The translations under genes were made by a program, and so were the position numbers. DNA of 64,000 nucleotides from NCBI RefSeq assembly GCF_000235565.1, contig NC_017527.1, positions 1,426,001 through 1,490,000 on the forward strand. Reading direction: 5' to 3'. Source of the stretch: Methanothrix harundinacea 6Ac. GTDB lineage: Archaea > Halobacteriota > Methanosarcinia > Methanotrichales > Methanotrichaceae. The notes below the pieces were generated by a model. The model was not told the DNA's origin, ran no database searches, and worked only from the letters and a program-made list of their open reading frames with translations. Positions within the stretch are counted from its first letter, which is position 1. The number at the start of each line of letters is the position of its first letter. Shown piece by piece: positions 26,238 to 44,290 of this stretch.

Positions 26238-26621
26238 CTAGGCCCCGGCGGTGGCGTTCTCCGGGACGTAGACGATCATCCCGTTCTCCAGGCGGTAGGC
26301 CGTCCCCATCCTCGTCCCCTGCCCCCCGGCGATCTTATCGGTCATGTTCAGGATCTGAATCTGGTCCATCTCCTTGATGATGATCTGCATGTTGGGGTCG
26401 CCGGGGTTTTTGACGATGGTGACGCTCGCCTCGGGGTTGAGGAGCTCCGGGATGTTGTAGGAGATGACCAGGGCGAGGAGAAGGGCGATGGCGAAGACCA
26501 TGGCGGCGTCGAAGAGGTTGGCGACCCCGCTCAGGGGGTCGTCATCTTCGGCATCCTCCAGGACTCCGAGGCGGGGGCGGCCTCGCCTGCCGCCGCCTCC
26601 CATCCCTCCCGCCTCTCTCAT
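26238..26621 (-). CDS. DUF2149 membrane protein (ExbD-like role)
   Basis: A 127-aa protein: Gly/Arg-rich cytoplasmic N-terminus, one membrane span (LFDAAMVFAIALLLALVISY) and an external domain (QIQILNMTDKIAGGQGTRMGTAYRLENGMIVYVPE). This matches DUF2149, found beside ExbB/TolQ-like proteins, with topology like ExbD/TolR. ATG 26621 overlaps the ExbB-like stop as ATGA, so the pair is translationally coupled. Last gene of the CobN-like cluster. Confidence 0.82.
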   Translation of the reverse strand: MREAGGMGGGGRRGRPRLGVLEDAEDDDPLSGVANLFDAAMVFAIALLLALVISYNIPELLNPEASVTIVKNPGDPNMQIIIKEMDQIQILNMTDKIAGGQGTRMGTAYRLENGMIVYVPENATAGA

Positions 26622-27283
26622 CCCCCTGCCTCCCTCTCTCGGCTCCGGTCCCTTCTCTTTCTCTCCCCATGCAGGAGCTCCGCCGCGTATTCGAGGTCGC
26701 TCATGTCCTGGCGGTACCACCTGTTTTTGACCGTATAGACCCCGTAGCAGATCCCGCCGACGGCAAGGCCGATCACCGTCGTCGAGAAGGCGATGACGAG
26801 GCTATCGGCCATCTGCTGGATCTCCCCCCGGGAGAGGCTGATCAGGGCTGGCCCCATGGGGATGAGGGTCCCCATCAGCCCCAGCATCGGTCCCACCCGA
26901 ACGCCGATCTTCACCGGCTCCAGGGCCTTCCCCATCCCCAGCTCCGCGTCCTGGAGGGCCTTCTCCAGCCTCGGGGCGGCGGGGTCGCCCCGGAGGGACC
27001 GGGCCTCCTCCCCCAGGGCCGCCAAGACCCGGGGGGTCCCCCGGTAGCCGGCCGTGAGGGAGGCGGCCTCCTCTTCCCGCCCCGAGAGCGCCATCTTCGA
27101 GGCCTCAGCGCAGATCCCCTCCAGCTCCTGGAGGTCTCTCCTCCGGGAGGTGTACTCGGATATGAGGGAGCCCAGGAGGGCGAGGGACCATCCGAAGAGG
27201 AGGAGGAGCGCCAGGATGACGGGGTAGAGGAGGGCGGTCGAGAAGACGAAGAGGAGGTTTACGACCTCTAAGTAGACGGTCAC
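26618..27283 (-). CDS. MotA/TolQ/ExbB-type proton channel subunit
   Basis: A 221-aa protein with an N-terminal span (LLFVFSTALLYPVILALLLLFGW), a cytoplasmic helical stretch, and two C-terminal spans: GPMLGLMGTLIPMGPALISL and LVIAFSTTVIGLAVGGICYGVY. The G-x-M-G-T-L-x-P-M-G and AFSTTVIGL motifs are the ExbB/TolQ/MotA signature. The family couples ion flow to mechanical work. GTG 27283 overlaps the DUF2162 stop (GTGA). With DUF2149 it would form an ExbBD-like motor in the archaeal membrane. Confidence 0.9.
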   Translation of the reverse strand: MTVYLEVVNLLFVFSTALLYPVILALLLLFGWSLALLGSLISEYTSRRRDLQELEGICAEASKMALSGREEEAASLTAGYRGTPRVLAALGEEARSLRGDPAAPRLEKALQDAELGMGKALEPVKIGVRVGPMLGLMGTLIPMGPALISLSRGEIQQMADSLVIAFSTTVIGLAVGGICYGVYTVKNRWYRQDMSDLEYAAELLHGERKRRDRSREREAGG

Positions 27284-27972
27284 CGGAAGACCCCCATCCT
27301 CCTCCCGACGAAGCCGAGGCCGACCAGTCCGAGGATGAATAGGTAGGAGGGGATGAGGTCCGAGGCGGGGATGGGGATGGGGACGAAGGGGGTCGACGCG
27401 GCCTTGAGGTAGGCGGGGATGAGAAGGATCGATAGGAGGTAGAAGAGGCCGACGAAGATCATGGCGTTCCCCAGGGCCGAGGGGGCCCTCCCCGCCCTTC
27501 CGAAGGTGGCGGAGAGGATCGCGATGGAGATGAAGAAGATGAGGCCGACGACCGCCCCCACCTTCCAGCCGGGGACGTCCAGGAGGCCAGCGAGGGCGCT
27601 GCAGGAGAGGAAGGTGGCGGCAAGGCAGGCAGGGCACGGGACGGAGAGGACCCAGAAGGTCTTTCGGGAGAGGTCGCGGCCGCGGCGGTTCCACTCCCGG
27701 GCGGTGGAGACCCCCACCGCCACCAGAAGGAGGGAGATGCCCAGGTGCATCGCGACCCCCATGCCCATGATCGAGGTGATGGCGGCTTCAGGGACGAGGC
27801 CGACTGCGAGGCCCATCACCAGGGAGAGGGCCAGGTAAGACGCTCCGATGGAGAGGGTCTCCTTCCGGCTGAGGCTGGCGAGGCCGCACCCCAGGCTGAC
27901 CTTCAGAGCGAATACAATGATCCCCATCAGAACACCAGAAGCGGCAAGCCACGGGTAATCCAAGACTTTCAC
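27280..27972 (-). CDS. DUF2162 predicted transporter
   Basis: A 230-aa polytopic membrane protein with about six to seven spans (for example WLAASGVLMGIIVFALKVSLG, AITSIMGMGVAMHLGISLLLV and DLIPSYLFILGLVGLGFVG). It has a conserved-looking CPACLAATFLSCSAL motif in a loop or span, possibly metal binding. It matches DUF2162, annotated as a predicted transporter, and is repeatedly seen between CobN-like and ExbB-like genes in methanogens (from memory). A TATA-like AT region precedes it at 27973-28020, so it may also have its own promoter. Confidence 0.8.
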   Translation of the reverse strand: MKVLDYPWLAASGVLMGIIVFALKVSLGCGLASLSRKETLSIGASYLALSLVMGLAVGLVPEAAITSIMGMGVAMHLGISLLLVAVGVSTAREWNRRGRDLSRKTFWVLSVPCPACLAATFLSCSALAGLLDVPGWKVGAVVGLIFFISIAILSATFGRAGRAPSALGNAMIFVGLFYLLSILLIPAYLKAASTPFVPIPIPASDLIPSYLFILGLVGLGFVGRRMGVFR

Positions 27973-28088
27973 CTACTACACTAGATTGGACTAAAGTCAA
28001 GTTTACAGGATATAACATTTGCGCAAGCCAGCCTGTCTGAGAGAAAGATAGCTTTGTTTCTCCGGGGAGGGGGGAGGTGAGGGGGCCC

Positions 28089-31000
28089 TCACCACCTCCT
28101 CAGAAACCCCGCCCCCACCGCCAGGAGGATGAAGAGGACGAGGATGATCCCCATCAGCGGGGCCGCCGATCGCGATGGGAGAGGGCTCTCCTCAGCCAAC
28201 TCCTCCATGACTAAGCCGCTGACGTCATCCTGCACCGATCCGGCCGCCTCGCCCGCCGGGACCAGCTCTTCGAGGATCTCTGTCCCGACGCTCGGCGGGC
28301 GGGTGGCGTTCGCCGCCCCTGGAGCTTCGGCACGAGGATAGGGGTGCCTGCTGGAACCGCCGCCCTTGCTCGCGCTATCGCGGGTAGCCTCCGTCTGCTC
28401 AGTTCCGGTGAGGACCCCCTCCAGGTACTCTCGGAGGAGGATGTTTCCGCAGGTGTGGTGGCAGCAGGTGACGCCGAACTCGGTCTCCGACTCCTCGAAC
28501 TCCTCGGCCAGCTTTTTTTTCATCTCCTCGGTGGGGTGCCAGTATCCTTTCCTCGAAGCCTCCAGCATCCTCGCCGTGACGACCTGGTATGCGTAGGGGT
28601 TCTTCTCGTCGAAGAACTCCCGGAGGCCCATATCGTACTTGTCCTTGACGTAAACGTCGTAGGCCTCGTTCCACATCGTCTCCGTTACCAGGTCGGGGAC
28701 GGTGACGTCCCATCCCCAGAGGTGCTCGACGAACTTGTCCATCTCCCTTCCTCCGGAGTACCCCTCCCCTTTCATCCCCTCGATCCATTTGGGGTTGTAG
28801 TAGCGGGACCGGAGCTCCCTTGTAAAGAAGCTCTTGAGGGGCTCCGCCTTTCCGGCAGCCCCTCTGGCCCGAGCGTCGGTGACGTAGAGGTTGGGGGCAA
28901 CGCCGGTGACGGTCCTGACGGCCATGGAGATCCCGCCCAGGTACTGGTAGACGTCGTCGTTGTCGATGAAGCCGTAGAGGTTCGAGTTGGTGTGGTGGGC
29001 CGCCGCCTCCACCTCGGCGAGGTTTCGGCGGTATACCTCGGTCTGGACTGCTGCGTAGTCCTTGCCGGAGGGGGTTCTGCTCCCCCAGACCCCATCGCCG
29101 TAGATGTAGGACATCCTGTCGATGAAGAGGTCGCCGAGCTTCGAATCGTTCTCCCAGGTGTCGCTTGCGGATACGGGGCTATCGAGGTTCGGGCCGTAGG
29201 TCCCGGCGGCCTCAAGGAAGATCCTGCTGGCGGCGAGGAATTCGGCATCCTCCTCGGAGTAGTTTCCCGTCGCCAGAAGCTCCGACCTGATCTCCTCGGA
29301 GTTCTCCCTCACGTAGTTGGGATAGTCGGTCGCCGAGTCGTTTGCTGCAAGGCGGATCGCCCGATCGATGAGCTGGAGCTTCTCGGGGAAGAGGTCCCGG
29401 TGGAGCCCCGAGGGGACGACCACCACGTCGATCCGGGGCCTTCCGAGCTCGGACGAGGGGGTCAGCCGGACGTCGGAGACGCCGCCGTAGGAGTCCCAGA
29501 CCGGCTCCGCCCCCACCAGCCTCAGGATCTCCGCCTCGACGACGCCGTGGTCTGTCGTCGCCCAGGCCCAGAGGACGATGGCGAGCTTCCTCGGGTAGGT
29601 CCCGTTCTCCTCGGCCCGATAGACCTCGATCAGATCCTCGGCCAGCTCCGACCCCACCTCCCAGGCTGCCGGCGTCGGGACCATCCTCGGGCTTATGGAG
29701 TGGAAGTTCCTCCCCGTCGGTAGGACGTTGGGATCTCTTATCGGATCGTCGGCCGGAGACGGCGGGGTGTACTCCGACTCCGAGGCGTTTATGAATCGCG
29801 GAACCTCCTCGACGGAGGCGTCGAGCCCCTCGGAGCGGGAGAGGGCGAGGGCGAGGAGGGCGGTCAGGTTCTCCGATCGGTTGGCTGTTCCAGCGCCCGG
29901 GCGGTTGGAGAAGACCTCCCCCTGGGCGAGATCGGGGCTCGTTTTATCGTCGATGACCGCCGCCAGGAGGGCCAGAGAGGCGTTATCGAGCTCCCGCTCC
30001 TTGTCGAGCCTCGAGGGGTTCGGGTAATCGTCGTAGGAGATCATGAGGGCGACCTCTCGCTTGTAGTCGTCGCCGAGCATCGATTGGACCATCTCCAGAC
30101 GGGCCCCCCCCTCCGGAGGGGTCGCAAAGGTATGGAGGCCGTAGGGCATGAACTCCTTCTTCAGGTCGTAGAGGTAGTGCTCGAGCTCTTCGACGAAACC
30201 GTCGAAGGCCTCCGGATCTCTGGAGAGCTCGCTCAGGTTTTTATCCAGGTCCTCGTCCAGGTGCAGCTCCTCGCACCGGGCGATGATCTCCTCTTTGTAG
30301 AGGGCCTTCACCGAGGCGTTCTCGACCTGGTGGTAGTTGAAGGCGGTCTCGGCGAGGTGGGTGAAGTTGCCGTAGAGGCCGGAGGCGACTATCGGCGGCG
30401 TCAGGTGGGTTATAATCACCGCGTCCCCCCTCCTCTTCGCCTGGGACCCCTCGGCGATGTTGTCGACGATGTAGGGGTAGATCACGGGAAGGTCCTGGAT
30501 CAGGATTCCCGGCCAGCACTGGTCGCGGGAAATCCCGCTCTCTTTGCCGGGGGTCCACTCCTGGGTGCCGTGTTTTCCGAGGTGGACGATGAAGTCGGCG
30601 TCGAAGCCCCTCCTCAGCCAGAGGTAGAAGGCGATGTACTGATGGTGGGGCGGTATGTCCTTATTGTGGTAGAGGATGGTGCTGTTCTGAAGCCACCCCC
30701 TCGTCGGCTGGGGGGCCAGGATGACGTTTCCGAAGGAGAGCTTGGGGATGACGAAGTAGCTCCCGGACTCGTTCTCGTAGACCATGATCTCCCCGGGGGG
30801 CGGGCCCCAGATCTCCGTCACCTCCCGCTGCTTTGCGGGGTCGATCTCGGAGAACCACTCCAGGTAATCGTCTGCCGGGATGAGGGTCGCGTTCCCCGCT
30901 CTGACCATCTTCTCCAGCTCTTCCGGCGCCCAGGTCCCGACGTTCGTTCCCTGGTGGGCCATCAGGTCGACGAGGTCCTGCTCATCGGGGACGGTCCCCT

Positions 31001-32654
31001 CCACCCGGTAGCCGGAGCCGTTCAGCCCCTGGAGGATCACCCGGAGGCTCCGGGGTACGTTGATGTAGGTCGCCCCCAGGTTGTCCTTTCCTCCGCCGTG
31101 GTTGTAGTAGATGATCGCCGCCTTCTTCTCAGAGTTCGGCCTTCGGCCGAGCTCTGCCCAGGCGATGGCCCGATCTGCCAGCCAATCGATCTGGCTCTGG
31201 ACGGGATCGAAGGTTCCCTTCTCGGTCCTTCCCGCTATCATCATCGGCTCGATGACCGCGTCCATCTCGGGCATGGCGATCTTGAAGTATAGCTCCGCTG
31301 GGAACAGGCCGGTTTCGTTCCTCCACTCCTCCGGGGTCTGGTACCAGAGCTTCATGGCATTGAGGACGGGGACGTTCAGCTCCTTGAGAGCCTCGATCCC
31401 CTCCTCGGGGTCTCCATAGTTCAGCCTGAAGGGCTTGGTGAGGAGAACGGCATCAACGATCGTCGATCCGTTCAGGATGAAGAAGTCCTGGATGGTGGTG
31501 GTGTTCTCAAATCCGATGTCGATGACGTTGGCCCCCCTCGCCTCCAGAGCCCTGACGATGGCGGTTCTCATCGACGAGGTCACGGGGTCGCTCGCCAGGT
31601 TCATCACCCCTATCGTCGGAGCCAACTCGTCGTAACGGTGGCCGGAATGGCTCCGGTACCACTGGAGGTAGGAGGAGGTCTGGAGGAAGAGGTCCGGCGA
31701 GTCCGGATGGCTGATGTAGGCCCTGGGGGTCGGAACGGGTGCCCTCACCGGCACCTCCAGGCCTAAAAAGGCCCTTGCCAGGTACGAATAGAGCCCCTTC
31801 ATGTTCTCGACTCCGCCATAGTTCCAGTACTCTTCGACCTCGGGATGGTCCTGGAGGTCGACATCTCCGAGGAGGCCGTCGTACCCCTCCGAGTGGATCG
31901 AGATGACGGGAACTCCCGCCTCCTTCGGCGCCTCCAGCAGGGGCAATAGCTTTCTTGCGCCGTCGCTTCCCACCATCTCCAGGAATATCAGGTCGTAGCC
32001 CGATAGGTTCGAGGGGGCGGTCTCCACGAAGGCGAGGGTGACGTTCAGGACGGCGTCCTTCGCCGATTCCTCGATCCCCGCGTGGTTCTCTGCGGCGATG
32101 AAGAGGGCCTCCGGCCTCTCCGTGAGGATCCTCGCTGTTATGTTCACCCTTGGGGATTCGCCGGGCAGAGCGTGCCGATCGCCAAGGAAGAAGGTGATTT
32201 CATCCCCCTCTTTGAGGAGGAATTGATCTGGGCCGACGACCGGGACGGGGTCCTGGGGATAGTTGACCACGTACCTCCAGGTTCTGTTCGCCGTCGCATC
32301 TGCGCCTCCCATCGACACCACTACGGGGCCGCGGATCGCCCAGAGGGACAAGTCCACCAGAAGCTCAAACCCGCCAGCTTCGGAGGCTCTGATGAGGGCT
32401 CCAAGGGCCGACCTTTCCGCGATCGAGGCATTGCCGCTTCCGCCTGATATGGGGATCTCCCCGCCGGCTAGGAGGAGCTCGCCCTCCCAGATCAGATCGG
32501 AGGGCTCATCTTTCGCCTCTCCCTCGGAGGGGCCCTGGCTGAGGTCTCCCAGGGCGGGGACGATCGTCATGAGGATGAGCAAAATAAGGGGGGAGATCCT
32601 CATCCAGGACCCCCCCCACCCCTCCGACCTTCTGCCGCGTCGGTGAGCGGACAA
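28089..32654 (-). CDS. Surface-anchored CobN/ChlH-like chelatase with DUF4430 domain
   Basis: About 1504-1521 aa. The N-terminus has a signal peptide (LILLILMTIVPALG). Residues about 55-165 form a DUF4430-like (transcobalamin C-terminal-like) domain: ALGALIRAS, TWRYVVNYP, LLKEGDEITFFLGD. The rest is a CobN/magnesium-chelatase H-type catalytic subunit with HLGKHGTQEWTPGKE and AKRRGDAVIITHLTPP. It ends in a Pro/Glu linker and a membrane anchor (MGIILVLFILLAVGAGFL). Cytoplasmic cobaltochelatase CobN has neither export signal nor anchor, so this one acts outside. Start is TTG 32654 (good ribosome site) or ATG 32603. CobS/CobT-type ATPases are absent nearby. Confidence 0.92.
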   Translation of the reverse strand: MSAHRRGRRSEGWGGSWMRISPLILLILMTIVPALGDLSQGPSEGEAKDEPSDLIWEGELLLAGGEIPISGGSGNASIAERSALGALIRASEAGGFELLVDLSLWAIRGPVVVSMGGADATANRTWRYVVNYPQDPVPVVGPDQFLLKEGDEITFFLGDRHALPGESPRVNITARILTERPEALFIAAENHAGIEESAKDAVLNVTLAFVETAPSNLSGYDLIFLEMVGSDGARKLLPLLEAPKEAGVPVISIHSEGYDGLLGDVDLQDHPEVEEYWNYGGVENMKGLYSYLARAFLGLEVPVRAPVPTPRAYISHPDSPDLFLQTSSYLQWYRSHSGHRYDELAPTIGVMNLASDPVTSSMRTAIVRALEARGANVIDIGFENTTTIQDFFILNGSTIVDAVLLTKPFRLNYGDPEEGIEALKELNVPVLNAMKLWYQTPEEWRNETGLFPAELYFKIAMPEMDAVIEPMMIAGRTEKGTFDPVQSQIDWLADRAIAWAELGRRPNSEKKAAIIYYNHGGGKDNLGATYINVPRSLRVILQGLNGSGYRVEGTVPDEQDLVDLMAHQGTNVGTWAPEELEKMVRAGNATLIPADDYLEWFSEIDPAKQREVTEIWGPPPGEIMVYENESGSYFVIPKLSFGNVILAPQPTRGWLQNSTILYHNKDIPPHHQYIAFYLWLRRGFDADFIVHLGKHGTQEWTPGKESGISRDQCWPGILIQDLPVIYPYIVDNIAEGSQAKRRGDAVIITHLTPPIVASGLYGNFTHLAETAFNYHQVENASVKALYKEEIIARCEELHLDEDLDKNLSELSRDPEAFDGFVEELEHYLYDLKKEFMPYGLHTFATPPEGGARLEMVQSMLGDDYKREVALMISYDDYPNPSRLDKERELDNASLALLAAVIDDKTSPDLAQGEVFSNRPGAGTANRSENLTALLALALSRSEGLDASVEEVPRFINASESEYTPPSPADDPIRDPNVLPTGRNFHSISPRMVPTPAAWEVGSELAEDLIEVYRAEENGTYPRKLAIVLWAWATTDHGVVEAEILRLVGAEPVWDSYGGVSDVRLTPSSELGRPRIDVVVVPSGLHRDLFPEKLQLIDRAIRLAANDSATDYPNYVRENSEEIRSELLATGNYSEEDAEFLAASRIFLEAAGTYGPNLDSPVSASDTWENDSKLGDLFIDRMSYIYGDGVWGSRTPSGKDYAAVQTEVYRRNLAEVEAAAHHTNSNLYGFIDNDDVYQYLGGISMAVRTVTGVAPNLYVTDARARGAAGKAEPLKSFFTRELRSRYYNPKWIEGMKGEGYSGGREMDKFVEHLWGWDVTVPDLVTETMWNEAYDVYVKDKYDMGLREFFDEKNPYAYQVVTARMLEASRKGYWHPTEEMKKKLAEEFEESETEFGVTCCHHTCGNILLREYLEGVLTGTEQTEATRDSASKGGGSSRHPYPRAEAPGAANATRPPSVGTEILEELVPAGEAAGSVQDDVSGLVMEELAEESPLPSRSAAPLMGIILVLFILLAVGAGFLRRW

Positions 32655-32658
32655 GCTT

Positions 32659-34185
32659 TCATCCCTCCCATCCCGTCGTCATCTCCACCCTGAAGAAATC
32701 CTGGGGGCTTCTGCTCCTATCTCCGAGGTAGAAGAGTACCCTGTCCCCCTCCTCCAGGGGAAAGCGGTCCGGCCCTTCGGAGGGCATCGGCTCCTCGGGA
32801 TAGTTCACCCAGTAGATCCAGAACTCTCCCGCCCTCGCCTCGATGCCGTCGATTGATCTCACCAGAAGGCCGTAGTCGTCGACGTAAGAGCCGTCGAAGG
32901 TGATCTCAAACCCTCCCACCTCGGAGGCCTTCATCAGCGCCCCCAGGGCCGTCCTCTCATCGACCGCGCGGACGCTCCCATCCTCCGCCGCAGCGTTGAA
33001 TCTCCCGTCGCCGAGGAGGACCTCCCCCTCGAAGATGACCTTTGAGCCCTCCTCCCCGAAGGCGTAGAGGCAGCCGTCGTCCGAGCCGATGTAGAGGACG
33101 CCGTCGGAGAAGGACGGCGATGACATCAGATAGGCTCCGGTCTCGTACCTCCAGACCTCCGAGCCGTCCGATCGATTGAGGGCGTAGACGACGCCTCGGT
33201 GAGATCCGAGATAGACCCGGTCTCCCGCGACGAGGGGCGAGGACCTGACGGAGCTATCGACCTCGGCGCTCCAGACGAGGGACCCGTCCGAGGCGTTGAG
33301 GCACGCGAGACGGCCATCGTCGGTCCCTATGTAGACCCGGCCGGAGGAGATGGCCGGAGACGACGTGGTTCCCTTGAGGGGCGCGACCCAGACCTCTTCG
33401 CCGGTGGAGGCGTCCAAAGCGCGGAGATCCTCCCTCGTGGCGAAGTAGGCTCTGCCCCCTCCGATCCCTGGCGTCGTGGTTATGGGTCCGTTCGTCGGAG
33501 CCCTCCAGAGGATCTCAAAAGAGGAGGTGTCGATACAATATAGGGCGGGGTCCCCTCCCGCAAAGTAGACCCTCCCCTCCTCGGCGGCAGGGGACGTATA
33601 GGGATCGATCTTGCCGGTTGAAATGTTCCAGAGCTCATCACCTTCGAGGTCCAGGACGTGGAGGGTCCCATCGGAGAAGGTGGAGACAAATACCAACTCC
33701 CCGATCACCAGGGGCGACGAAGCTACCCCCCACCACTGAGGGTCCCTCTCGACCGTCCGATTCCAGACGGTCTCGCCGGTTTCAGCGTCCAGACAGTATA
33801 GATCTCCGTACCAGGAGCCGGCGAAGACGAGGCCGCGGGAGACGGCGGGGGTCGAAGCTCCCCCCTTCCCACCCAGGGGATTCCGCCAGAGGACCGACCC
33901 GTCCCTGGCGTCGAGGCAGCCGAGGGCCTGCTCTCCCTGGTAGGACATGTCAGGCCAGGACGAGACGTAGACCCTCTCCCCAGATATTGAAGCGCTCCCT
34001 CCAACGTAGCCCTTGGCCGTCACCTTCTCCCTCCAGAGGAGCACGGGGGCGGCGGGGCCGTCCCCGCTGACGTTCCCGGTCCTCTGGGCGTCGCCGCGGA
34101 AGGTCAGATGGTCCCCGAAGGCCGGCGAGATCGCTGAGGCGAGGATGAGGCCCATCATCAGGGCCAGGGCGAGCCGTCGGATCAC
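32659..34185 (-). CDS. Secreted PQQ-type beta-propeller with C-terminal DUF4430-like domain
   Basis: About 508 aa. Signal peptide (ALALMMGLILASAISPAFG), then some seven PQQ-like blades with repeated W-x-x-x and G-x-V-Y-x-G-S/T-x-D-G-x-L/V-x-x-L-x-x-x-x-G motifs (for example SSPAISSGRVYIGTDDGRLACLNASDGSLVW). From about 385 a DUF4430-like domain (TALGALMKASEVGGFEI, FWIYWVNYP, LEEGDRVLFYLGD) closely resembles that of the CobN-like protein. The GTG start overlaps the upstream stop (GTGA). The CobN-like gene begins four bases after its stop. True PQQ binding is not implied by this repeat in archaea. Confidence 0.88.
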   Translation of the reverse strand: MIRRLALALMMGLILASAISPAFGDHLTFRGDAQRTGNVSGDGPAAPVLLWREKVTAKGYVGGSASISGERVYVSSWPDMSYQGEQALGCLDARDGSVLWRNPLGGKGGASTPAVSRGLVFAGSWYGDLYCLDAETGETVWNRTVERDPQWWGVASSPLVIGELVFVSTFSDGTLHVLDLEGDELWNISTGKIDPYTSPAAEEGRVYFAGGDPALYCIDTSSFEILWRAPTNGPITTTPGIGGGRAYFATREDLRALDASTGEEVWVAPLKGTTSSPAISSGRVYIGTDDGRLACLNASDGSLVWSAEVDSSVRSSPLVAGDRVYLGSHRGVVYALNRSDGSEVWRYETGAYLMSSPSFSDGVLYIGSDDGCLYAFGEEGSKVIFEGEVLLGDGRFNAAAEDGSVRAVDERTALGALMKASEVGGFEITFDGSYVDDYGLLVRSIDGIEARAGEFWIYWVNYPEEPMPSEGPDRFPLEEGDRVLFYLGDRSRSPQDFFRVEMTTGWEG

Positions 34186-35408
34186 TGGAGATCCTCCTCT
34201 TCTCCCGCCCCGCCGAAGGCGTAGACCCTTCCCTTCCCTACGGTGAAGACCATCCTGTCGGCGACGGCCGGCGAGGACCCGCCGCCGGGATGGCTCCAGA
34301 CCACTTTGCCGGTGGCGGCGTCGAGGGCGACGGTTCCGCCGAAGTCGTCGAAGTCGGGCCGTCCGACGAAGACGAGGCCGTCGGCATAGGCCATGGAGCA
34401 CCTCCAGTCACCGATCTTCTCCGCCTCGTCCGTCTCCCAGACCAGCTCGCCGGTGGCAGCTTCGAAGGCGTAGGTCTTGGAGCTGCTGAATCCCTCCACC
34501 CCTCCGCAGACGTAGACCTTCCCTTCGGCCAGAGTGGGGGTCGAGTCCGTCGGCGAGATCTCCCTCCTCCAGAGGAGCGAACCATCCGATAAGGAGAGGG
34601 CGAGGAGGTCGCCGTTCCCGTTGAAGTTGTAGGTGGTCATGTAGACGGTGCCGTCGTGGACAGCCGCAGATCCGCAGGGAGAGTTCTCCGTCTGGATAGA
34701 CCAGATCTCGGAGCCTTCTTCAAGGTCGGCGCAGTAGATCTTGCCTCCAAGCCCCCACTCCCAGGCCCCGAAGACGACTCTGCCGTCGGCTATGGCAGGG
34801 GTGGACTGGGCAGCTCCCTCCACGGTGAAGTTCCAGATCTCTCTTTCGGAGGCCTCCTCGAGGCAGCGATAGTGGTGGCCGTCCCAGTCGCTGGCGATGA
34901 CCTTCCCGTCTTCCACGGCCGGGCTTCCGTCCACAGCGCCCCTTCCTGAAGGCGGGGCGAAGCTCCAGATCTCCTCGCCGGTGGTGGCGTTTAGACACTT
35001 GGTCTCCATCCCCGAGAAGTAGAGCCTGCCGTCGGAGTAGACGGGGGTGAACCAGGAGCAACAGACGTCCCCGTTCCTCTCGAAGGGCGCGGCCCAGATG
35101 GTCTCCCCCGTTCCCTGGTCCAGGGCGACGATCTCGTCTACGCAGTTGACGAAGACCAGGCCCTCGGCGACGCTGACGGAAGATCCGGCCTGGGCGCCGA
35201 TCTCCCTCGTCCAGAGGGTGTGGTTTGTCCTCGGCGCAGAAGATGAAGATGCACCTCGATGCTGGGGGTCGAGGTGGAACTGGTGCCAAGCGGCACCATC
35301 GCTTCCCTCCGGATCGAGATCGATCGATTCATCGCTGAGGGCGGGCCCGGTCAAGGCCGAAAAGATCAGGATTATTACGACGGATTCCAAGACGAGATTA
35401 AATTTCAT
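34182..35408 (-). CDS. Secreted PQQ-type beta-propeller protein
   Basis: 408 aa with a signal peptide (LESVVIILIFSALTGPALS) and a seven- or eight-bladed PQQ-like propeller (HTLWTREIGAQAG, GETIWAAPFERNG, SSPAVADRMVFTVGKGRVYAFGG). There is no DUF4430 domain or membrane anchor at the C-terminus. The ATG overlaps the previous propeller's stop as ATGA and its own stop overlaps the next start, so three propeller genes are tightly coupled. Likely a surface scaffold or binding protein; ligand unknown. Confidence 0.85.
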   Translation of the reverse strand: MKFNLVLESVVIILIFSALTGPALSDESIDLDPEGSDGAAWHQFHLDPQHRGASSSSAPRTNHTLWTREIGAQAGSSVSVAEGLVFVNCVDEIVALDQGTGETIWAAPFERNGDVCCSWFTPVYSDGRLYFSGMETKCLNATTGEEIWSFAPPSGRGAVDGSPAVEDGKVIASDWDGHHYRCLEEASEREIWNFTVEGAAQSTPAIADGRVVFGAWEWGLGGKIYCADLEEGSEIWSIQTENSPCGSAAVHDGTVYMTTYNFNGNGDLLALSLSDGSLLWRREISPTDSTPTLAEGKVYVCGGVEGFSSSKTYAFEAATGELVWETDEAEKIGDWRCSMAYADGLVFVGRPDFDDFGGTVALDAATGKVVWSHPGGGSSPAVADRMVFTVGKGRVYAFGGAGEEEDLQ

Positions 35409-36691
35409 GAGGTAGATCCTCCTGTGGGTTCTATCTTTATGGTCGAATTTTCCGAAGGGTCGGCCTGGGGATCGGAGAGGCAGTAGAGGATTCCCTTCTC
35501 GGTCCCGAAGTAGACCCGCCCCTCCGAGACCGCGGCTCCGGCGAGGATGTATCCGTCATCCTGCGGGTCGAACCTCCAGAGGAGCCGAGGCTCGGAGCCG
35601 CCGTCCTCGATGCAGTAGATTGAGCCGTTGACCCTGGCGGCGGTGAAGACGATCCGGGGAGATTCTCCGGCCGCAGAGATCACCGGCGAGGACTTCACCC
35701 CCGCCTCGACGGGGTAAGACCAGATCAGATCGCCGGTGGAGTCGTCGAGGCAGGTCAGAGCCCCGGGATACCCGTGCTCGCCGACGCCGAGGTAAACCCT
35801 GCCGTCGTAGACGGCCGGAGTTGAGGTGCTGAAACCGACGGAGGAGCTCCAGCCGAGGTTCTCGAAGGTCCCATCCTCCTCGTCGAAGCCGACCTTCCAG
35901 GCGTAGCCCCTCTTGGCCGAGAACTCAGATGTCGTATAGACAGAGCCGTCTTTGTAAGAGACCGAAGCCCGGATGCGGCCGGGATCTGACGCCGCAAACC
36001 CGATCCTCGATCCGTCGGAGAGGTTCAGGATGTCAGAAAGGTCGCCGGTCTTCCTATCGACGCAGAGAAGGAGGCCGTCATTTGAGCCATATACGAGATA
36101 ATCCCCGGCGACGGCGGCGCCGCACCCCATGTAGCCGGTGGTATCTCGCGAGAGGTTCCAGACCTCTTCTCCGTCCTCGTCGAGGCAGAAGTAGCGCTTC
36201 TCGCCCCGGCCGCGGCCGCTCCCCTCGCCGAGGTAGATCAGCCCATCGAAGCAAGTTATGGGGACCTCAAACCTCCTGTCGGTGAGGTGACGGGTCCAGA
36301 CCTCTTCGCCTGTCTGAGCGTCGAAGGAGGCGAGGTCGCCGGAGTCCGTCGCCGCGAGGATCCTGCCTCCGGCGAGGGCAGGGGTGGAGGTCTGAAATAC
36401 CCAGCCTTCCGTCTGAGCCTCCCACCGGAGGTCGCCGGTCTCACCGTCGAGGGACGAGAGGGTTCCGTCTCCGGCGAGGACGTATACAGAGCCGTCTGCT
36501 ACGATGGGAGGGATGTCAACCCGGATGAGGTCGCAAGACCAGAGGATCCGCGGATCCTCCGGGACGGCGCTTTCAGCGAGCCCGGAGTTTATCGCATCCC
36601 CCTGGAACTGGGGCCAATCTACAGCCTCCGAGAGGAGGAGGGATGATATCAGAACTGATAGATAGAGGGCTGCTGTAACGACTTTTTTCAT
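35405..36691 (-). CDS. Secreted PQQ-type beta-propeller protein
   Basis: About 428 aa; ATG 36691 (MKKVVTAALYLSVLISSLLL) gives a good signal peptide. A further in-frame ATG nine codons upstream is less suitable. The body is a PQQ-like propeller (WPQFQGDAINSG at the start, GSVYVLAGDGTLSSLDGETGDLRWEA blades, a possible disulphide Cys set). The C-terminal tail is Ser/Thr-rich. First of the three coupled propeller genes. A TATA-like GAATAAATTG lies about 60 bases upstream, so transcription probably starts here as well as further upstream. Confidence 0.85.
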   Translation of the reverse strand: MKKVVTAALYLSVLISSLLLSEAVDWPQFQGDAINSGLAESAVPEDPRILWSCDLIRVDIPPIVADGSVYVLAGDGTLSSLDGETGDLRWEAQTEGWVFQTSTPALAGGRILAATDSGDLASFDAQTGEEVWTRHLTDRRFEVPITCFDGLIYLGEGSGRGRGEKRYFCLDEDGEEVWNLSRDTTGYMGCGAAVAGDYLVYGSNDGLLLCVDRKTGDLSDILNLSDGSRIGFAASDPGRIRASVSYKDGSVYTTSEFSAKRGYAWKVGFDEEDGTFENLGWSSSVGFSTSTPAVYDGRVYLGVGEHGYPGALTCLDDSTGDLIWSYPVEAGVKSSPVISAAGESPRIVFTAARVNGSIYCIEDGGSEPRLLWRFDPQDDGYILAGAAVSEGRVYFGTEKGILYCLSDPQADPSENSTIKIEPTGGSTS

Positions 36692-37031
36692 CTCGACTCG
36701 ACCACCACGAAAGTTCAAAGGCTGATCCTCAAATCAATTTATTCTCACTTTAGGTAAGTAAACTTGATTTTAAGCCTTTCGATCGGTAGGAAAGGATCTG
36801 GGGAGAGATCTGAGAGATGGAGGGCCGGAGGACCGGGCTGCCGGCCCCAGGTCGGAGGTGCTGTGGCCGATCAGCGGGCACCCAAATTTTGGCGAGATCC
36901 CTCACCCCGAGGTCGGCGGCACGGTGGTCCAAACTCCAGCATACCCTTTCCTGGAAGCTTCTCGAACCTGTCAGAACCGGCTCGGCCTTTGATGATAGGC
37001 CAGCCTCTATCTCCTCCGCCCCGGCTTTGGC
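36692..37031. other. Intergenic region with promoter for the propeller operon
   Basis: The right-hand part of this 340-base gap has GC-rich sequence with no convincing gene. The left part (about 36715-36775) is AT-rich; read leftward it contains AAGTTTACTTACC and GAATAAATTGATTTG, which suit a promoter for the 36691 gene. No hairpin or repeat of note was seen. Confidence 0.5.
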
Positions 37032-40000
37032 CTAGATCTCTCCCCCTCCCGCGGCCAAATTCAGCTGGCATATCTCCTCGCAGGTGAGGTTGTTTGAGTA
37101 GTCCATATACTGGAAGCCCCAGTCGGGCGGAGTCCAGATTGGTTGGGGAAGCTCGCCCTCAAACTCGGCGATCTCTATGACGGAGCTGGCGTATACCCGC
37201 GGCGTCCTGGAGCCGTCGACGGACCGCGCCTCCACCAGGGCCTGGTTGAAGAACCTCCCGCCCCGGAGGGCCTCGGCGCCGTAGACGATCGTCTCTGCCT
37301 CATACGGGCCGAGGTCTATCAGGGTCCAGGTGACGGCGTTGCCGTCGACGGAGGAGGGCTTTGGCGATGAGTCGAGGAACCTCATCGAATCCGGGAGGAT
37401 GTCGGTGACCGCGGCCACCTTGGAATCCTCGCCGAGGTTCTGGATGGTGACGGTGTAGGTGACGACCCTCGGATCGTTCTCGTCCACCTCGCCAAGCTTC
37501 GTCGCTGTCACCGATGCATCGCCGTCCCAGCTCAGCCAGTCGGTCTCGATGGCGTCGAAGGCGGCGGCCGTGAGGACGTTGCCGTTGTACCCCGCCGAGG
37601 CCTCGAGCCTATTGACGATCTCATCGCCCCGGCAGTTGGAGACATCAAGCCAGAGGGTGATGCGGAGGACGCCGCCGAGCCCCAAGTTCAGGAAGGTCCA
37701 CTCGGCGCTCTCGTTGGAGAGGCCAGTCGTCCGCTCCGAGGCGTTGACGAACCTGGCCCCCGGCGGGAAGAGGTCTCTAATCGCCAGGGGTCCGAGGGCC
37801 CGATTGCCGTCGTTTTTGAGGGTTATGTTGTACCGGGCAAAGATGGCGTCATCCGAATAGAAGATCTCCCCAGACTTCTCGGCCGAGAGGTGGGGTTCAT
37901 CATACTCGAAGTCCCCGGCGAAGACCACCCTCCTCGCGATGGAGTAGTCGCCGGAGTAGAGGTCGTCGATATCCATCTCGACCTTTCGCCTCCCCAACGC
38001 AGTGCCGTTGCCCGTCTCGTTCTCTGAGTCCTTCTCCAACTCGTTGACCCTGGTGTCGATGGAGATGGCCCTGAACCGGCCCATCCCGGAGAACTCAGCC
38101 TCCGTGGCCACGTCCCCCAGCCCCCTCGCCACCGTCTCCTTATCGAGGCGGTCGAGGCTTGAGAACTCCTCTCCGATGAAGGTGGTTCTGTTCTCGCTCT
38201 CGTTCTTCGACCAGATTCCCTCCTTCCATTTGGCAGAGCTGTTGAAGAATAGACTCCCTCCGAGGTCCAGGCTCGTCGGCTGATGGGCGAGGTTGATATC
38301 CTTTGCCATGTAGTCGGTCGCCGCCTCGAGGATCTCGTCGGAGTCGTAGGCGCCGGAGCCGGACTCGTAGGACCTCTGCTGGTCACCGATCCTTTTATCC
38401 GCCGAGACCGACCCCGTTCCTGAGGCCGACTTCTCGTACTTGATGCTGGAGCCGTTGACCACCTGGTATACCTTGAAGCTCCCCGAGTAGGTCTCCTCGG
38501 ACTCGAAGTCGGCGGGGCCGCCCTCGGCGGTCGGCTTCTGGAATATCCTGAAGCTTCCCATCCCTTCGAACTCCGACTCGGACTTCATCGATGTGCCCGT
38601 CTCGTCGAGCTTGAAGCGGGAGTCCCGGTCGATGGCCGTGGCGTACCGATAGGTCTCGCCCATGGTAGTGCCAGTGATCCGGTTATTTCCGCAAGCCGTC
38701 TCGGTCCATCTCGAGGAGTAGGTGAGGGAGCGGTTGTTGTAGAGGCCGATGCCGGTCGGGGCATAAGTCGCCGAGACGGCCTTCTCCATCTCGATGGACT
38801 TATCCTCGGTCTTCACCACCACCAGATCCTCGCTCTCGTAGCTCCCGCTCCCGTGCTCCCGGGTCGAGAGCTCGGTTCCCGGGTCGGTAACCTCGACATT
38901 CGCGCTGGCGGAAGCCTGGAGGGCGACGTCCGTGGTGTTGATCGCGGTGACGACGGCGACGTTATTGAGGTTGTGGTTCGGAGAGGTCGTCGAGTAATCG
39001 TTGGCGGCGTTGACGAACCCCTCGCCCCTCACGCTCTGCTCCATCTCGAACTTGAAATCCTGGATCTCGGGGACGAGCACCTCCAGGGTGATATCTTCAA
39101 AGTCACCTGGTTTGATCTCATCGAAGGTCCAGACGATATCACTGAAACGATCCCCCTCCTCGTATCCATCGATGGGCGCGGGATCTGCGGTGATGAACTC
39201 CACATCCCGGCTGAAGGCGTCTTTGACCGTCACTTCCTTCAGGCTTTCAACGGCGTAAATGTTGTAGACCTCTATCTTGTACTTGACCTTCTTTCCCCGC
39301 TCCACAGATTCTTTGTCGGCGGTTTTGGTCACTATGAGGGGATCGGCTATGCCCACAAAGACCCTGCTGCAGCCGAAAGCACCAATCTGGTCATCGTTTT
39401 CGTCGAGGGCCGCGACTTCAACGCAGTTTTCAAGAATGGCCGAAGGGGGCTTATCATTGACCTTCACCCTTAGATTTATCACCTCGCATCCGCCCGGTGG
39501 TATTTCATCTGGCAGGTTCCATTCCAGATGATCTCCGTCCGCCGAATTGGGCCAGGGATCTGCATACTCGAAGGAAGACTCCTCCGGAAGGTCGTCGGCG
39601 ATTTGAACGTCCGTCAACGCATAGGGACAGTCGTTGCAGATCGTTATGGTGTAGTTGAGGATCTCGCCAGGGTTCGCCGAGTTGTTTTCGGCCTTCTTTG
39701 TCACAATCAGGTCGCTCTCGATCTCGCCGGTGGCGGTGATGATGTGATAGCCGCCCGGTGTCAGGTAGTACGTTCCGATGTAATCCGGCTTACTCGCCTT
39801 GACTTTGTACTCGCCCTTCCATGTTAGCGTGATGTTCGAAGTATTTCCGTCGGCCCCGGTGGTGTATGTCTTAGATCCGACGGTGACGGTGGCCCCTTTC
39901 TGGGGTACCGTCACCAGGTTCCAAGAGGCGTCGTACTCTTCAGATACGACCTTGATCTTGAATGGATCGCCGACTACTACCTCATCAGGAGGATGAAGAC

Positions 40001-42518
40001 TGACGTCCATCGAATTTGTCATCCTGAGCGAGTTTACCGTGTATGGGGCGCTGACGCAGATCCAGTCCCCATCGGTCAGGAAATACTGGTCGAGGCCGAC
40101 GCTTGGGGAAACTCCGTCGACGTAATAGACGGGCATCCCCCTACCGTCAAGATCGGTGACCGCGGGGCTTCCCATCCCCCAGGGATCGCCGATAGTGTAA
40201 GGGACGCCGGTCACCTCGAGAGCCCCCAGAGCCGTCGGGTTATCTATATCGTACCCATTCTTCTCAAAGCCGACGGAGCTCGCGAATACCTCTCCGCTGA
40301 AGATGGGATTTCCGTTCCCCAGGACGTGGATCGTTACCGTCTCTCCTTCGGCCTCCAGGCAGGTTATGATCTGATAGCCGCCGGGGGTCAGGTAGTAAGT
40401 TCCAACGTATCCAGGCTTATCGGCCCGGACCCTGTACTCGCCGGCCGTGGTGAACATTATCTCTGGCGTGTATCCGTCGGCACCGGTGGTGTAGGTCTCG
40501 GACCCGATGGTGACGGTGGCGCCTTGCTGGTGGACTGTGACCAGGTTCCAAGAGGCATCGTACTCTTCGGTCTCCACCTTAATCTTGAAGCGTTCTCCGA
40601 CGACGACTTCGGTGGGAGCCGCCATCTCAAGGGGATATACGTCGTAGGGAGCTGCGATGGTGATCCAGTCCCCATCGCTGAGGAGATACTGGTCGAGCCC
40701 GACGGGGGCCTGCCCTCCATTCACGTAAAAGGAGGGGGCCCCAAACCCAGCGACGTCGGAGACGAAGAGCCCCCAGGCCCATTCTGATAAGGAATAAGGT
40801 ACGCTCGTCAGATCCAGGGCGCCCATCGCCGTCGGGTTCTCGATCTCGTATCCGTCCTTCTCAAACCCGACGGCGGTGACTTCCACCTCGCCGCTGAAGA
40901 GGGGAGCGCCATTTCCGAGGACGTGGATGGTGACGGTCACAGGCTCGCTGCTTCGGCAGTTTATGATCTGGTACCCGCAGTTGAGGTAGATGGTATCGAT
41001 GTATCCGTCCTTCTTGGCCTCGACCCTGTACTCTCCGGGCTCTTTGAAGGTGATCTCCGGGGTCTTCCCATCCTTATCGGTGGTGTAATCGGCGGAGGAG
41101 GTGTCGGACTTTACTGTGACAGTCGCTCCTTCCACCGGAGCTGATACGATGAGTCCTCTATCATCCAGATCCTCAGAGGCGACCTCTATGGTGAACGCCG
41201 TCCCTTCCAAGACATCTTCCGGCGCGGTGATTCGGAGGGGAAGAACGGTGATCGGAGCGCTTATGACGACGCACTCGTCCCCGGTCACGTCATGCTCGCC
41301 GATGGGGTCGTCTTCCCTCGCCCCGTCGACGAAGTAGATCGGGGCCCCATAACCCTCCAGGTCCGAGACGGCCGGCCTTCCCGATCCGTCGAGGTCGGCG
41401 AGGGAATAGATCAGCCCCGTCGCCTCGAGCGCCCCCAGGACGGTGGGGTTAGAGACCTCAAAGCCGTCCTTGGTGAAGCCCTCGCCCCCGATGGCGAGGT
41501 CCCGGCTGAAGAGGGGATAGCCGTCCCCGAGGACGGTGACGGTGGCGGTGGCGCCCTCCCCCACCTCGCCGGCCGCGGCGGCTATGGGGAGGCTTTCGCC
41601 CATCAGGGCGATGATGGAGTAGGAGGTCGCCTCGGCGAGGAACCCGGCCCCACCCTGGGAATCGGGCTTCCACCAGAAGACCCCGCTCTTCTGCTGGCAG
41701 CTCAGGAGGTGGGAGACGGGAGTCTCTCTTTCCTTCCCCCATTCGGCGGGGTTGACTCCGGCAGCGTTCGAGGCCATCATCGCCCAATAGTCGCTGATGG
41801 CGTTGGAGTCGGGGCTCATCCCCGAAGAGGGAAAGCCGCCGTCATCGTTCTGCTCGCGTCTGATGTACCCGAGGGCGTCCTGGATCCTCTGACCTGCGGG
41901 GTCCTCGCCCGCCGCCAGGAGGGCGGAAGCTCCGATCCCGGTGGTGTCGAGGTCGGGAGCCCCGCCGCCCCACCCCCAGCCTCCTGAGGAGTGCTGTTTG
42001 CTCTTGATGTAGGAGGCGAAGGCCTGGGCCTCCGCTGACCCGGCCTCGCCCGCCGCGGCCAGCCCGAGGAGGATGTAAGACTCGGAGAAGAGGTTCTCCC
42101 GGCCGTAAGGCGGCTTCGCCTTATCTTTAAGCCTCTCGACGTAGTCTATTCCCGCTACGTTCCGGGGGTCGCCTCCGCAGGCTTCGACCCCCATGACGTA
42201 CCTGCCGATGCTCCCGCCGGATGCGTTCGCCTCGGGCAGGTTTGCGACGAGGTAGTCGAGGGGTGTCTTGCCGCCCTCCTTGGCGCGGCCCAGGTCGCCA
42301 GTGAGGGCGAGGGCCATGGCAGCATTGGCTGTAGGCATTAAGCTGCTCCTCGCGGCGTCCGGCTCGTTTCCGAATCCACCGTCCTCGTTCTGACAGGATA
42401 ATAGGTAGCTGACGGCTTTTCTGATGGCTGGATCCTCCCCTCCCAGGGGGAAGTCCTGGGAAGCTCCCGCCCCGGCCAAGAAGAGGATGAGGATGAGGCC
42501 GAGCCCGAAAATTCTCAA
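37032..42518 (-). CDS. Giant secreted transcobalamin-like / DUF11 surface protein
   Basis: About 1828 aa from TTG 42518, which follows GGGAGG by six bases and begins a signal peptide (RIFGLGLILILFLAGAGA); the frame stays open to ATG 42596. Residues about 30-320 form an alpha-alpha toroid with Q-x-x-D/S-G-G-F/W repeats (SCQNEDGGFGNEPD, REQNDDGGFPSSG, SKQHSSGGWGWGG). Three DUF4430-like domains follow (NPTVLGALEATG, NPTAMGALDLTS, NPTALGALEVTG, each then YFVDG/FYVNG/YYVDG), with carboxypeptidase-regulatory-like beta-sandwiches between. Next are DUF11-type repeats (LIVTKKAENNSANPGEILNYT) and beta-rich repeats to the end. Toroid plus DUF4430 is the domain order of animal transcobalamin. No C-terminal anchor is visible. 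Confidence 0.85.
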   Translation of the reverse strand: MRIFGLGLILILFLAGAGASQDFPLGGEDPAIRKAVSYLLSCQNEDGGFGNEPDAARSSLMPTANAAMALALTGDLGRAKEGGKTPLDYLVANLPEANASGGSIGRYVMGVEACGGDPRNVAGIDYVERLKDKAKPPYGRENLFSESYILLGLAAAGEAGSAEAQAFASYIKSKQHSSGGWGWGGGAPDLDTTGIGASALLAAGEDPAGQRIQDALGYIRREQNDDGGFPSSGMSPDSNAISDYWAMMASNAAGVNPAEWGKERETPVSHLLSCQQKSGVFWWKPDSQGGAGFLAEATSYSIIALMGESLPIAAAAGEVGEGATATVTVLGDGYPLFSRDLAIGGEGFTKDGFEVSNPTVLGALEATGLIYSLADLDGSGRPAVSDLEGYGAPIYFVDGAREDDPIGEHDVTGDECVVISAPITVLPLRITAPEDVLEGTAFTIEVASEDLDDRGLIVSAPVEGATVTVKSDTSSADYTTDKDGKTPEITFKEPGEYRVEAKKDGYIDTIYLNCGYQIINCRSSEPVTVTIHVLGNGAPLFSGEVEVTAVGFEKDGYEIENPTAMGALDLTSVPYSLSEWAWGLFVSDVAGFGAPSFYVNGGQAPVGLDQYLLSDGDWITIAAPYDVYPLEMAAPTEVVVGERFKIKVETEEYDASWNLVTVHQQGATVTIGSETYTTGADGYTPEIMFTTAGEYRVRADKPGYVGTYYLTPGGYQIITCLEAEGETVTIHVLGNGNPIFSGEVFASSVGFEKNGYDIDNPTALGALEVTGVPYTIGDPWGMGSPAVTDLDGRGMPVYYVDGVSPSVGLDQYFLTDGDWICVSAPYTVNSLRMTNSMDVSLHPPDEVVVGDPFKIKVVSEEYDASWNLVTVPQKGATVTVGSKTYTTGADGNTSNITLTWKGEYKVKASKPDYIGTYYLTPGGYHIITATGEIESDLIVTKKAENNSANPGEILNYTITICNDCPYALTDVQIADDLPEESSFEYADPWPNSADGDHLEWNLPDEIPPGGCEVINLRVKVNDKPPSAILENCVEVAALDENDDQIGAFGCSRVFVGIADPLIVTKTADKESVERGKKVKYKIEVYNIYAVESLKEVTVKDAFSRDVEFITADPAPIDGYEEGDRFSDIVWTFDEIKPGDFEDITLEVLVPEIQDFKFEMEQSVRGEGFVNAANDYSTTSPNHNLNNVAVVTAINTTDVALQASASANVEVTDPGTELSTREHGSGSYESEDLVVVKTEDKSIEMEKAVSATYAPTGIGLYNNRSLTYSSRWTETACGNNRITGTTMGETYRYATAIDRDSRFKLDETGTSMKSESEFEGMGSFRIFQKPTAEGGPADFESEETYSGSFKVYQVVNGSSIKYEKSASGTGSVSADKRIGDQQRSYESGSGAYDSDEILEAATDYMAKDINLAHQPTSLDLGGSLFFNSSAKWKEGIWSKNESENRTTFIGEEFSSLDRLDKETVARGLGDVATEAEFSGMGRFRAISIDTRVNELEKDSENETGNGTALGRRKVEMDIDDLYSGDYSIARRVVFAGDFEYDEPHLSAEKSGEIFYSDDAIFARYNITLKNDGNRALGPLAIRDLFPPGARFVNASERTTGLSNESAEWTFLNLGLGGVLRITLWLDVSNCRGDEIVNRLEASAGYNGNVLTAAAFDAIETDWLSWDGDASVTATKLGEVDENDPRVVTYTVTIQNLGEDSKVAAVTDILPDSMRFLDSSPKPSSVDGNAVTWTLIDLGPYEAETIVYGAEALRGGRFFNQALVEARSVDGSRTPRVYASSVIEIAEFEGELPQPIWTPPDWGFQYMDYSNNLTCEEICQLNLAAGGGEI

Positions 42519-42695: not shown

Positions 42696-43100
42696 TCAGA
42701 CCCGGTGGCTGCCGTCGCATAGCGGCTTCTTCGCCGATCGGCCGCACCTGCAGAGGGCGAACTGCCCCTCCTCGGCGATCAGTCGGCCGTCTTCTCCGAA
42801 GAGGGAGCACCTCCCCTTAACCAGGAGGGGGCCGTCCTTCACCACCCTGATCTCCGCGGCCGGGGCCCCTCCCGGGCCTTTAGCCCTTCCGATGTCGTCG
42901 TTTCTCCTGTAGGATAGGGCCCCCGAGGGGCATCGGTCGATGGCGGCCATGATCTCGTCGGAGGTGGCCCCCTCCATATCCACCCAGGGGCTCTTCTGGG
43001 GGTTGAAGACCCCCGGCAGGCCTCTGAGGCACTCCGCCGCATGGATGCACCTCTCCGGGTCCCAGAAGACGGTGATCTCGCCGTTTGTGTACTCCTTCAC
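42696..43100 (-). CDS. Fused Fer4-like and CDGSH iron-sulphur protein
   Basis: 134 aa. The N-terminal half is a divergent ferredoxin-like domain (FWDPERCIHAAECLRGLPGVF, then IDRCPSGAL), with three to four cysteines of the mono-cluster YjdI type. The C-terminus is CRCGRSAKKPLCDGSH, an exact CDGSH [2Fe-2S] signature (Cys-Cys-Cys-His ligands). This fusion is known in bacteria and archaea and is thought to carry electrons or clusters. The gene is divergent from tupA. A short T-run (CGTTTTTGCG on the minus strand, about 42650) lies after it. Confidence 0.9.
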   Translation of the reverse strand: MKEYTNGEITVFWDPERCIHAAECLRGLPGVFNPQKSPWVDMEGATSDEIMAAIDRCPSGALSYRRNDDIGRAKGPGGAPAAEIRVVKDGPLLVKGRCSLFGEDGRLIAEEGQFALCRCGRSAKKPLCDGSHRV

Positions 43101-44245: not shown

Positions 44246-44290
44246 CCGCCTTATTCGCGGAAGGAGTCCCTGGACTAAATAAGAGTACAG

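Follow-up and report, generated by a model that had tools for sequence, protein, structure and literature searches.

What would a CobN-family metal chelatase do on the outer face of an archaeal cell? The question is raised by eight genes in a 64,000-nucleotide stretch of the Methanothrix harundinacea 6Ac genome (contig NC_017527.1, positions 1,426,001 to 1,490,000; this whole stretch is the window, and its coordinates are used below). An original prediction, made from the sequence alone, had read the cluster as an energised surface system that binds a corrinoid or haem and removes or inserts its metal. We put at about even the chances that it is a cell-surface machine for tetrapyrrole capture and metal release, an archaeal counterpart of the HmuS-U-V set of Bacteroidota, in which an outward-facing, ion-gradient-linked de-chelatase acts on cobalt (or nickel) tetrapyrroles.

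The locus and its conserved core

All eight open reading frames (ORFs) run along the minus strand, ordered as had been claimed, each protein is backed by a Pfam match, and the claimed ATGA/GTGA start-stop overlaps are found at four junctions (35405/35408, 34182, 27280/27283 and 26618/26621). The genome that bears them is 2.57 Mb in size and ~99.9% complete. The chelatase and the three membrane proteins that follow it are these:

28089..32603, minus strand: CobN-like chelatase, predicted to face outward (signal peptide, DUF4430-like domain, CobN body, C-terminal transmembrane segment, basic cytoplasmic tail)
32124..32498, minus strand: DUF4430-like domain at the chelatase N-terminus
28101..28157, minus strand: transmembrane anchor at the chelatase C-terminus
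27280..27972, minus strand: DUF2162 protein that spans the membrane several times and in which CPxC, Cys, His, Asp and Lys are invariant (Pfam 6e-54)
26618..27283, minus strand: ExbB-type channel subunit (MotA_ExbB 3e-10), the sole MotA/ExbB protein found in the genome
26238..26621, minus strand: DUF2149, an ExbD/TolR-like partner with a single transmembrane segment and an invariant membrane Asp (Pfam 6e-33)

About 80 archaeal regions around DUF2162 were collected (loci are designated L and families f below), and neighbours were counted in those with adequate flanks. ExbB adjoins DUF2162 in 59 of 59 such loci, as does DUF2149 (59/59), and a CobN-family gene is near in 50 of the 59. Of 393 genomes in the phylum, 116 carry DUF2149. 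A CobN-family gene occurs in 111 of those 116, compared with 233 of the full 393 (Fisher p ~6e-25, with the overlap tallied by hand from two lists). Five genomes of a neighbouring family, f2, that lack DUF2149 (G168, G258, G283, G288 and G369) also lack DUF2162 and CobN. The co-occurrence counts and this joint loss establish DUF2162-ExbB-DUF2149-CobN as a genuine unit, widespread across archaeal families. The expectation that the genes travel together accordingly holds for the four-gene core and not for an indivisible set of eight, the toroid and propeller genes being lineage-specific. Gene order within the core is variable: CobN stands first in most Methanotrichaceae and last in most other families. 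No clear common operator or palindrome was found upstream of DUF2162 in class-level relatives.

Variants of the core exist. L071, L129, L131 and L132 encode a 390-412-residue DUF2162 protein and two ExbB-DUF2149 pairs with no CobN nearby, and L071 additionally encodes a secreted protein of 1506 residues; the motor may serve a different partner in these loci.

An outward-facing chelatase

The chelatase matches the Pfam family CobN-Mg_chel with E=0 and 1122.6 bits. In almost every surface chelatase the body lies between an N-terminal signal or anchor and a C-terminal membrane segment; a second CobN of the same genome (L001), a soluble protein with zero membrane segments, has neither. In 50 of 50 surface chelatases, positive charge favours the C-terminal tail over the outer flank. 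These membrane segments and the positive-inside tail predict a body that faces outward. 'Surface-anchored', as the chelatase had been described, is upheld by its C-terminal membrane segment, and the term applies to that protein only. The C-terminal piece of a CobN near the soluble gene (L003, genome C2:1741142-1741324) contains an in-frame stop and is likely a remnant gene.

In a FastTree phylogeny of 94 chelatases, a method that calls for caution on long branches, soluble CobN and ChlH split from the anchored archaeal proteins and HmuS (support 100, on the soluble side), with the archaeal surface chelatases forming one clade and HmuS another. The window chelatase falls outside the HmuS clade, in a separate clade, and is not grouped with soluble CobN/ChlH. 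L173, L176 and L178, which bear the label 'cyt' in the tree, cluster with the surface proteins and are counted as surface-type in the residue tallies that follow. Searched against the PDB, the window chelatase finds HmuS first (514 bits), then ChlH (473) and CobN (442), and its soluble paralogue finds ChlH (600), CobN (453) and HmuS (377). Sequence identity is about equal, 29% to HmuS and 31% to the soluble group, so that placement of the chelatase rests on tree and topology. Several deep surface-chelatase branches occur in f2 loci (L058, L062, L142, L143 and L060), some of them N-terminally extended (the L060 ORF has 2075 residues), which suggests that differing substrates may be handled.

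The active site is partly that of HmuS. In HmuS, His538 is essential to de-chelation (PMC12583661), and His1209 faces it. The His538 equivalent is present in the window chelatase (HLGKHG, where the HmuS motif is HFG(T/A)HG) and in 52 of the 57 clade members. In the window chelatase, Val and Pro stand in place of Met79 and His254 (HGR motif), the residues that bind haem in HmuS, and Gln299, which defines HmuS, is also absent. His1209 (LSLDHxxEFMGG) is Asp in the window chelatase (IDNDDVYQYLGG) and in 47 of 57 clade members; Mycobacterium tuberculosis CobN also has Asp here, and ChlH has His. The absent haem ligands and this Asp speak against haem and are compatible with a corrin-type ring, which is suggestive and not proof.

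Relation to HmuS and to the soluble chelatases

That the chelatase is energised, faces outward and is related to the hmu set of Bacteroidetes, as had been claimed, is supported by profile matches as well as by topology. In 38 Bacteroidota hmu loci, the archaeal ExbB profile finds HmuU at 1e-40 to 1e-57, the DUF2149 profile finds HmuV at 1e-27 to 1e-39 (HmuV and the window's DUF2149 share 49% identity), and the CobN profile finds HmuS. The archaeal cluster and hmuYRSTUV (HmuS, PDB 9D26) share a CobN-family protein outside the inner membrane and anchored at both ends, homologous ExbB (HmuU) and DUF2149 (HmuV) subunits, the S-x-U-V gene order and His538. Unlike hmuYRSTUV, the archaeal cluster lacks HmuR and HmuT, no TonB receptor was found, and DUF2162 occupies the HmuT slot; Met79 and His254 are absent, His1209 has become Asp, and the partners are propeller and DUF4430/toroid proteins. 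Identity of DUF2162 with HmuT was considered and rejected: there is no hidden Markov model match, and the hhalign probability is 21%.

CobN of the aerobic cobaltochelatase (CobNST; PDB 7C6O) belongs to the same Pfam family over its full body and has the Asp at the HmuS 1209 position; however, it is a soluble cytoplasmic protein that acts with the AAA+ proteins CobS/CobT, whereas the archaeal chelatase would be anchored outside with ExbB/DUF2149. The Mg-chelatase subunit ChlH/BchH likewise shares the family and the six-domain body, but is soluble, has His at the 1209 position and is partnered by ChlI/ChlD. No ChlI/CobS-type AAA+ partner is encoded among the cluster genes, to which this search was confined. 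Taken by its protein sequences, the archaeal cluster classes as a new variant of the HmuS-U-V type and not as an HmuS member.

A proposed motor for the chelatase

ExbB and DUF2149 have the hallmarks of an ExbB/ExbD-type motor. The membrane Asp of the single DUF2149 transmembrane segment is present in 77 of 77 archaeal and 24 of 24 hmu proteins, and the GTLIP and TT motifs of ExbB are nearly invariant in both sets. HmuU/HmuV have been assigned to energising the TonB receptor (PMC12583661). No TonB-dependent receptor barrel was found in the window genome, and the ExbB of the cluster is the only one found there; the partner common to archaea and Bacteroidota is therefore the chelatase, and we infer that the motor acts on it. 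A fold search of DUF2162 against the PDB yielded no informative match.

Toroid, propeller and DUF4430 proteins

The remaining four genes, which precede the chelatase, encode secreted proteins:

37032..42518, minus strand: giant secreted protein with a signal peptide, an alpha/alpha toroid, three DUF4430-like domains and at least four DUF11 domains (Pfam and model)
41574..42458, minus strand: alpha/alpha toroid domain of the giant protein (model pLDDT, the predicted local distance difference test, mostly >90; fold matches squalene-hopene cyclase and farnesyltransferase)
41319..41558, minus strand: DUF4430-like copy 1 of the giant protein
40713..40946, minus strand: DUF4430-like copy 2 of the giant protein
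40110..40349, minus strand: DUF4430-like copy 3 of the giant protein, the best Pfam stretch of the three
35405..36691, minus strand: secreted PQQ-type beta-propeller 1 (PQQ_2 3e-35)
34182..35408, minus strand: secreted PQQ-type beta-propeller 2 (PQQ_2 3e-39; ATGA overlap)
32659..34185, minus strand: secreted PQQ-type beta-propeller 3 with a C-terminal DUF4430-like domain (GTG start, approximate; overlaps the preceding stop)

These proteins are a Methanotrichaceae add-on to the core. Thirteen genomes of the family encode the toroid, and each of them has DUF2162, itself present in 27 of the family's 50 (p=6e-5); toroid and DUF2162 share a contig in 11 of the 13, as read from coordinates. Weaker toroid matches outside the family are to large, unrelated-looking proteins. 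The direct evidence for a joint role of propeller and chelatase is fusion: PQQ propellers are joined in frame to the chelatase in seven loci (L037, L041, L043, L044, L046, L047 and L150), which argues that the two act together. The window keeps propeller and chelatase as separate genes, with a DUF4430-like domain on each side of the junction. Directly upstream of the propeller-chelatase genes of a congeneric genome (L041:1-7120) lie BtuF-BtuC-BtuD-like genes and a nitrogenase-like trio (one CfbC/NifH-like and two NifD/BchB-like), the latter possibly a tetrapyrrole reductase.

The five DUF4430-like copies in three proteins hold up, though not equally well: the giant protein has three, the third propeller has one at its C-terminus (Pfam E=0.0012) and the chelatase has one at its N-terminus (Pfam E=0.14; 36-45% identity to the clearer copies). 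The description of the giant protein as 'transcobalamin-like' is weakly supported, by DUF4430 and not by the toroid. DUF4430 lies at the C-terminus of the vertebrate B12 binders (PMC4350170), and the giant protein exceeds the Pfam cut-off for it (27.1 bits against 23.8), alongside matches to the SQHop/Prenyltrans toroid and four to DUF11. Like transcobalamin and intrinsic factor, it pairs an alpha/alpha toroid with DUF4430-type domains. A profile of the propeller/CobN-type copies has one plausible, weak match in the PDB, to the C-terminal domain of transcobalamin-2 (E=0.39); a stronger one, Scone-R, looks like a beta-propeller repeat artefact and was set aside. The profile of the giant protein's own copies does not match transcobalamin in the PDB, and the DUF4430 copy in the AlphaFold model is of low confidence and unusable. 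Unlike those two proteins, the giant protein has three DUF4430 and several DUF11 domains and a toroid nearer to squalene-hopene cyclase and prenyltransferases. The toroid, modelled with confidence, is a generic alpha/alpha barrel: its top 50 PDB matches comprise cyclases, prenyltransferases, complement C5 and glycosidases, with transcobalamin not among them, and Pfam does not match the protein to the eukaryotic cobalamin-binding family.

BtuG of Bacteroides has a beta-propeller fold. It offers a precedent for how the window propellers might work, being reported as a corrinoid-capturing surface lipoprotein (PMC6143338); the window propellers are PQQ-type, and the proposed likeness is one of function.

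An iron-sulfur protein with Fer4_19 and CDGSH domains adjoins the cluster (42696-43100) and is also found beside it in L043, L044 and L045. Three divergent genes beyond it (43298-45714) have the look, by sequence only, of a tungstate/molybdate-type ATP-binding cassette transporter (binding protein, permease and ATPase).

Which metal, and in which direction?

Relatives in family f9 place the core among genes for cobalt and corrin. In L121 and L124 the operon reads DUF2162-ExbB-DUF2149-CobN-CbiM-CbiN-CbiQ-CbiO-CbiT-CbiL-CbiF, and in L123 the core is found with CbiT-CbiL-CbiF-CbiH-CbiC; the three operons are tightly spaced, and most of the members tested exceed their NCBIfam cut-offs. Within 12 kb of the core, CbiL is present in 8 of 16 well-flanked f9 loci and CbiM in 5 of 16, where random placement would give ~1-3% by our estimate. 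The core is also linked with cobalt/corrin genes in L065 and L070. The f9 operons specify the early-cobalt anaerobic route, for which an outward late chelatase is not required in corrin synthesis; cobalt supply is the simpler reading of the chelatase's role. Two further observations concern these neighbourhoods: a gene for a Dph6/PAB0415-type PP-loop ATPase lies 5' of DUF2162 (L121:10607-11308; similarly in L123, L124 and L070), and in L064 (1988-4249) an N-terminus resembling this ATPase is fused to a BtuF-like protein.

Substrate and direction can be proposed from these features. Of the two rings named in the original prediction, the corrinoid gains from the cobalt/corrin genes beside the core in relatives, and haem, its HmuS ligands missing, loses; a cobalt or nickel tetrapyrrole is the more likely substrate. 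As to removal or insertion of the metal, release is favoured because the protein would stand outside, lacks an ATP motor and is related to a proven de-chelatase; insertion finds no positive support. The secreted propellers and the DUF4430/toroid proteins would bind a cobalt tetrapyrrole (a corrinoid), or possibly a nickel one, and pass it on. The chelatase would then pull out the metal by means of its conserved active-site His opposite the Asp. The membrane ion gradient, through ExbB-DUF2149, would power either the loading of substrate or the chelatase's conformational cycle, as an extracellular counterpart of the ATP-driven CobST/ChlID that serve soluble chelatases. DUF2162, or else another importer such as CbiMNQO, would admit the released Co(II) or Ni(II) for the cell's own cofactor synthesis.

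Several facts weigh against this reading. The cobalt/corrin synteny sits in families f9 and f19, not in Methanotrichaceae, and a scan of the region near the cluster found zero Rfam families, cobalamin riboswitches included. Some loci with room for a CobN have the core without one (L042 and L071). The catalytic His is missing from the alignment in five of the 57 chelatases, and four surface chelatases on a branch of their own (L064, L117, L138 and L139) carry His at the HmuS 1209 position, perhaps for a different substrate. Cobalt is very hard to extract from an intact corrin, so corrinoid de-chelation would, to our knowledge, be unprecedented. Purified HmuS, moreover, is active in vitro without HmuU/HmuV, so that the motor is not obligatory for HmuS chemistry (PMC12583661). 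A final point, the response of a Methanothermobacter CobN and a nearby transporter to nickel limitation, is also the best reason to keep the metal open to nickel.

On the nickel alternative, which we consider unlikely though the likeliest of three, F430 and other nickel tetrapyrroles released by dying methanogens would lose their Ni(II) to the surface chelatase, to the benefit of nickel enzymes. Nickel can pass through CbiM-type importers. In M. marburgensis a protein annotated as CobN1 reaches a high level only under nickel limitation, with the 'Transporter' MTBMA_c10530 also raised (PMC12350162); the CobN-like MTBMA_c10550-10570 are two genes away from c10530 and were once proposed to be nickel chelatases (PMC3087415). 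The case supposes that CobN1 belongs to the outward clade and that c10530 is DUF2162; against it, the f9 neighbours of the core are genes of cobalt-corrin synthesis, and the active-site Asp is as in cobaltochelatase.

A haem de-chelatase that frees iron, as in Bacteroidota, is improbable. HmuS is the chelatase's best PDB match, homologues of HmuU and HmuV are present, and two CobN-like 'BtuS' proteins of M. barkeri shift with the iron/sulfur source (PMC10846266); set against these are the absent Met79, His254 and Gln299, the replacement of His1209 by Asp in 47 of 57, the cobalt/corrin neighbours in relatives, and HmuR and HmuT counterparts that were not found. Just as improbable is an importer in which the chelatase serves as a corrinoid- or metal-binding receptor and ExbB-DUF2149-DUF2162 as a secondary importer that leaves the metal in place, since the catalytic His motif, needless for a pure receptor, is retained in 52 of 57 and the DUF2162 fold search was uninformative, for all that DUF2162 has invariant Cys, His, Asp and Lys residues and ExbB-type motors usually drive transport.

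Implications

The reading of the cluster as a tetrapyrrole capture and metal-release machine can be carried a step further, to a proposition that we advance tentatively and think more probably wrong than right: that ExbB-DUF2149 is a dedicated ion-gradient motor for outward class-I chelatases, taking the place of the cytoplasmic AAA+ motor, and that on the surface of archaeal cells it powers the extraction of cobalt (or nickel) from intact corrinoids or F430. We know of no biological example of metal removal from either at the cell surface. If the proposition is true, HmuU/HmuV of gut bacteria would serve HmuS and not the TonB receptor. The outward archaeal class, with HmuU/HmuV homologues, operons that include cobalt uptake and corrin synthesis, and a window genome in which no TonB receptors were found, calls their presumed role into question. 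A common archaeal gene set gains a directly testable function, and the findings suggest how trace metals may be recycled in communities that produce methane.

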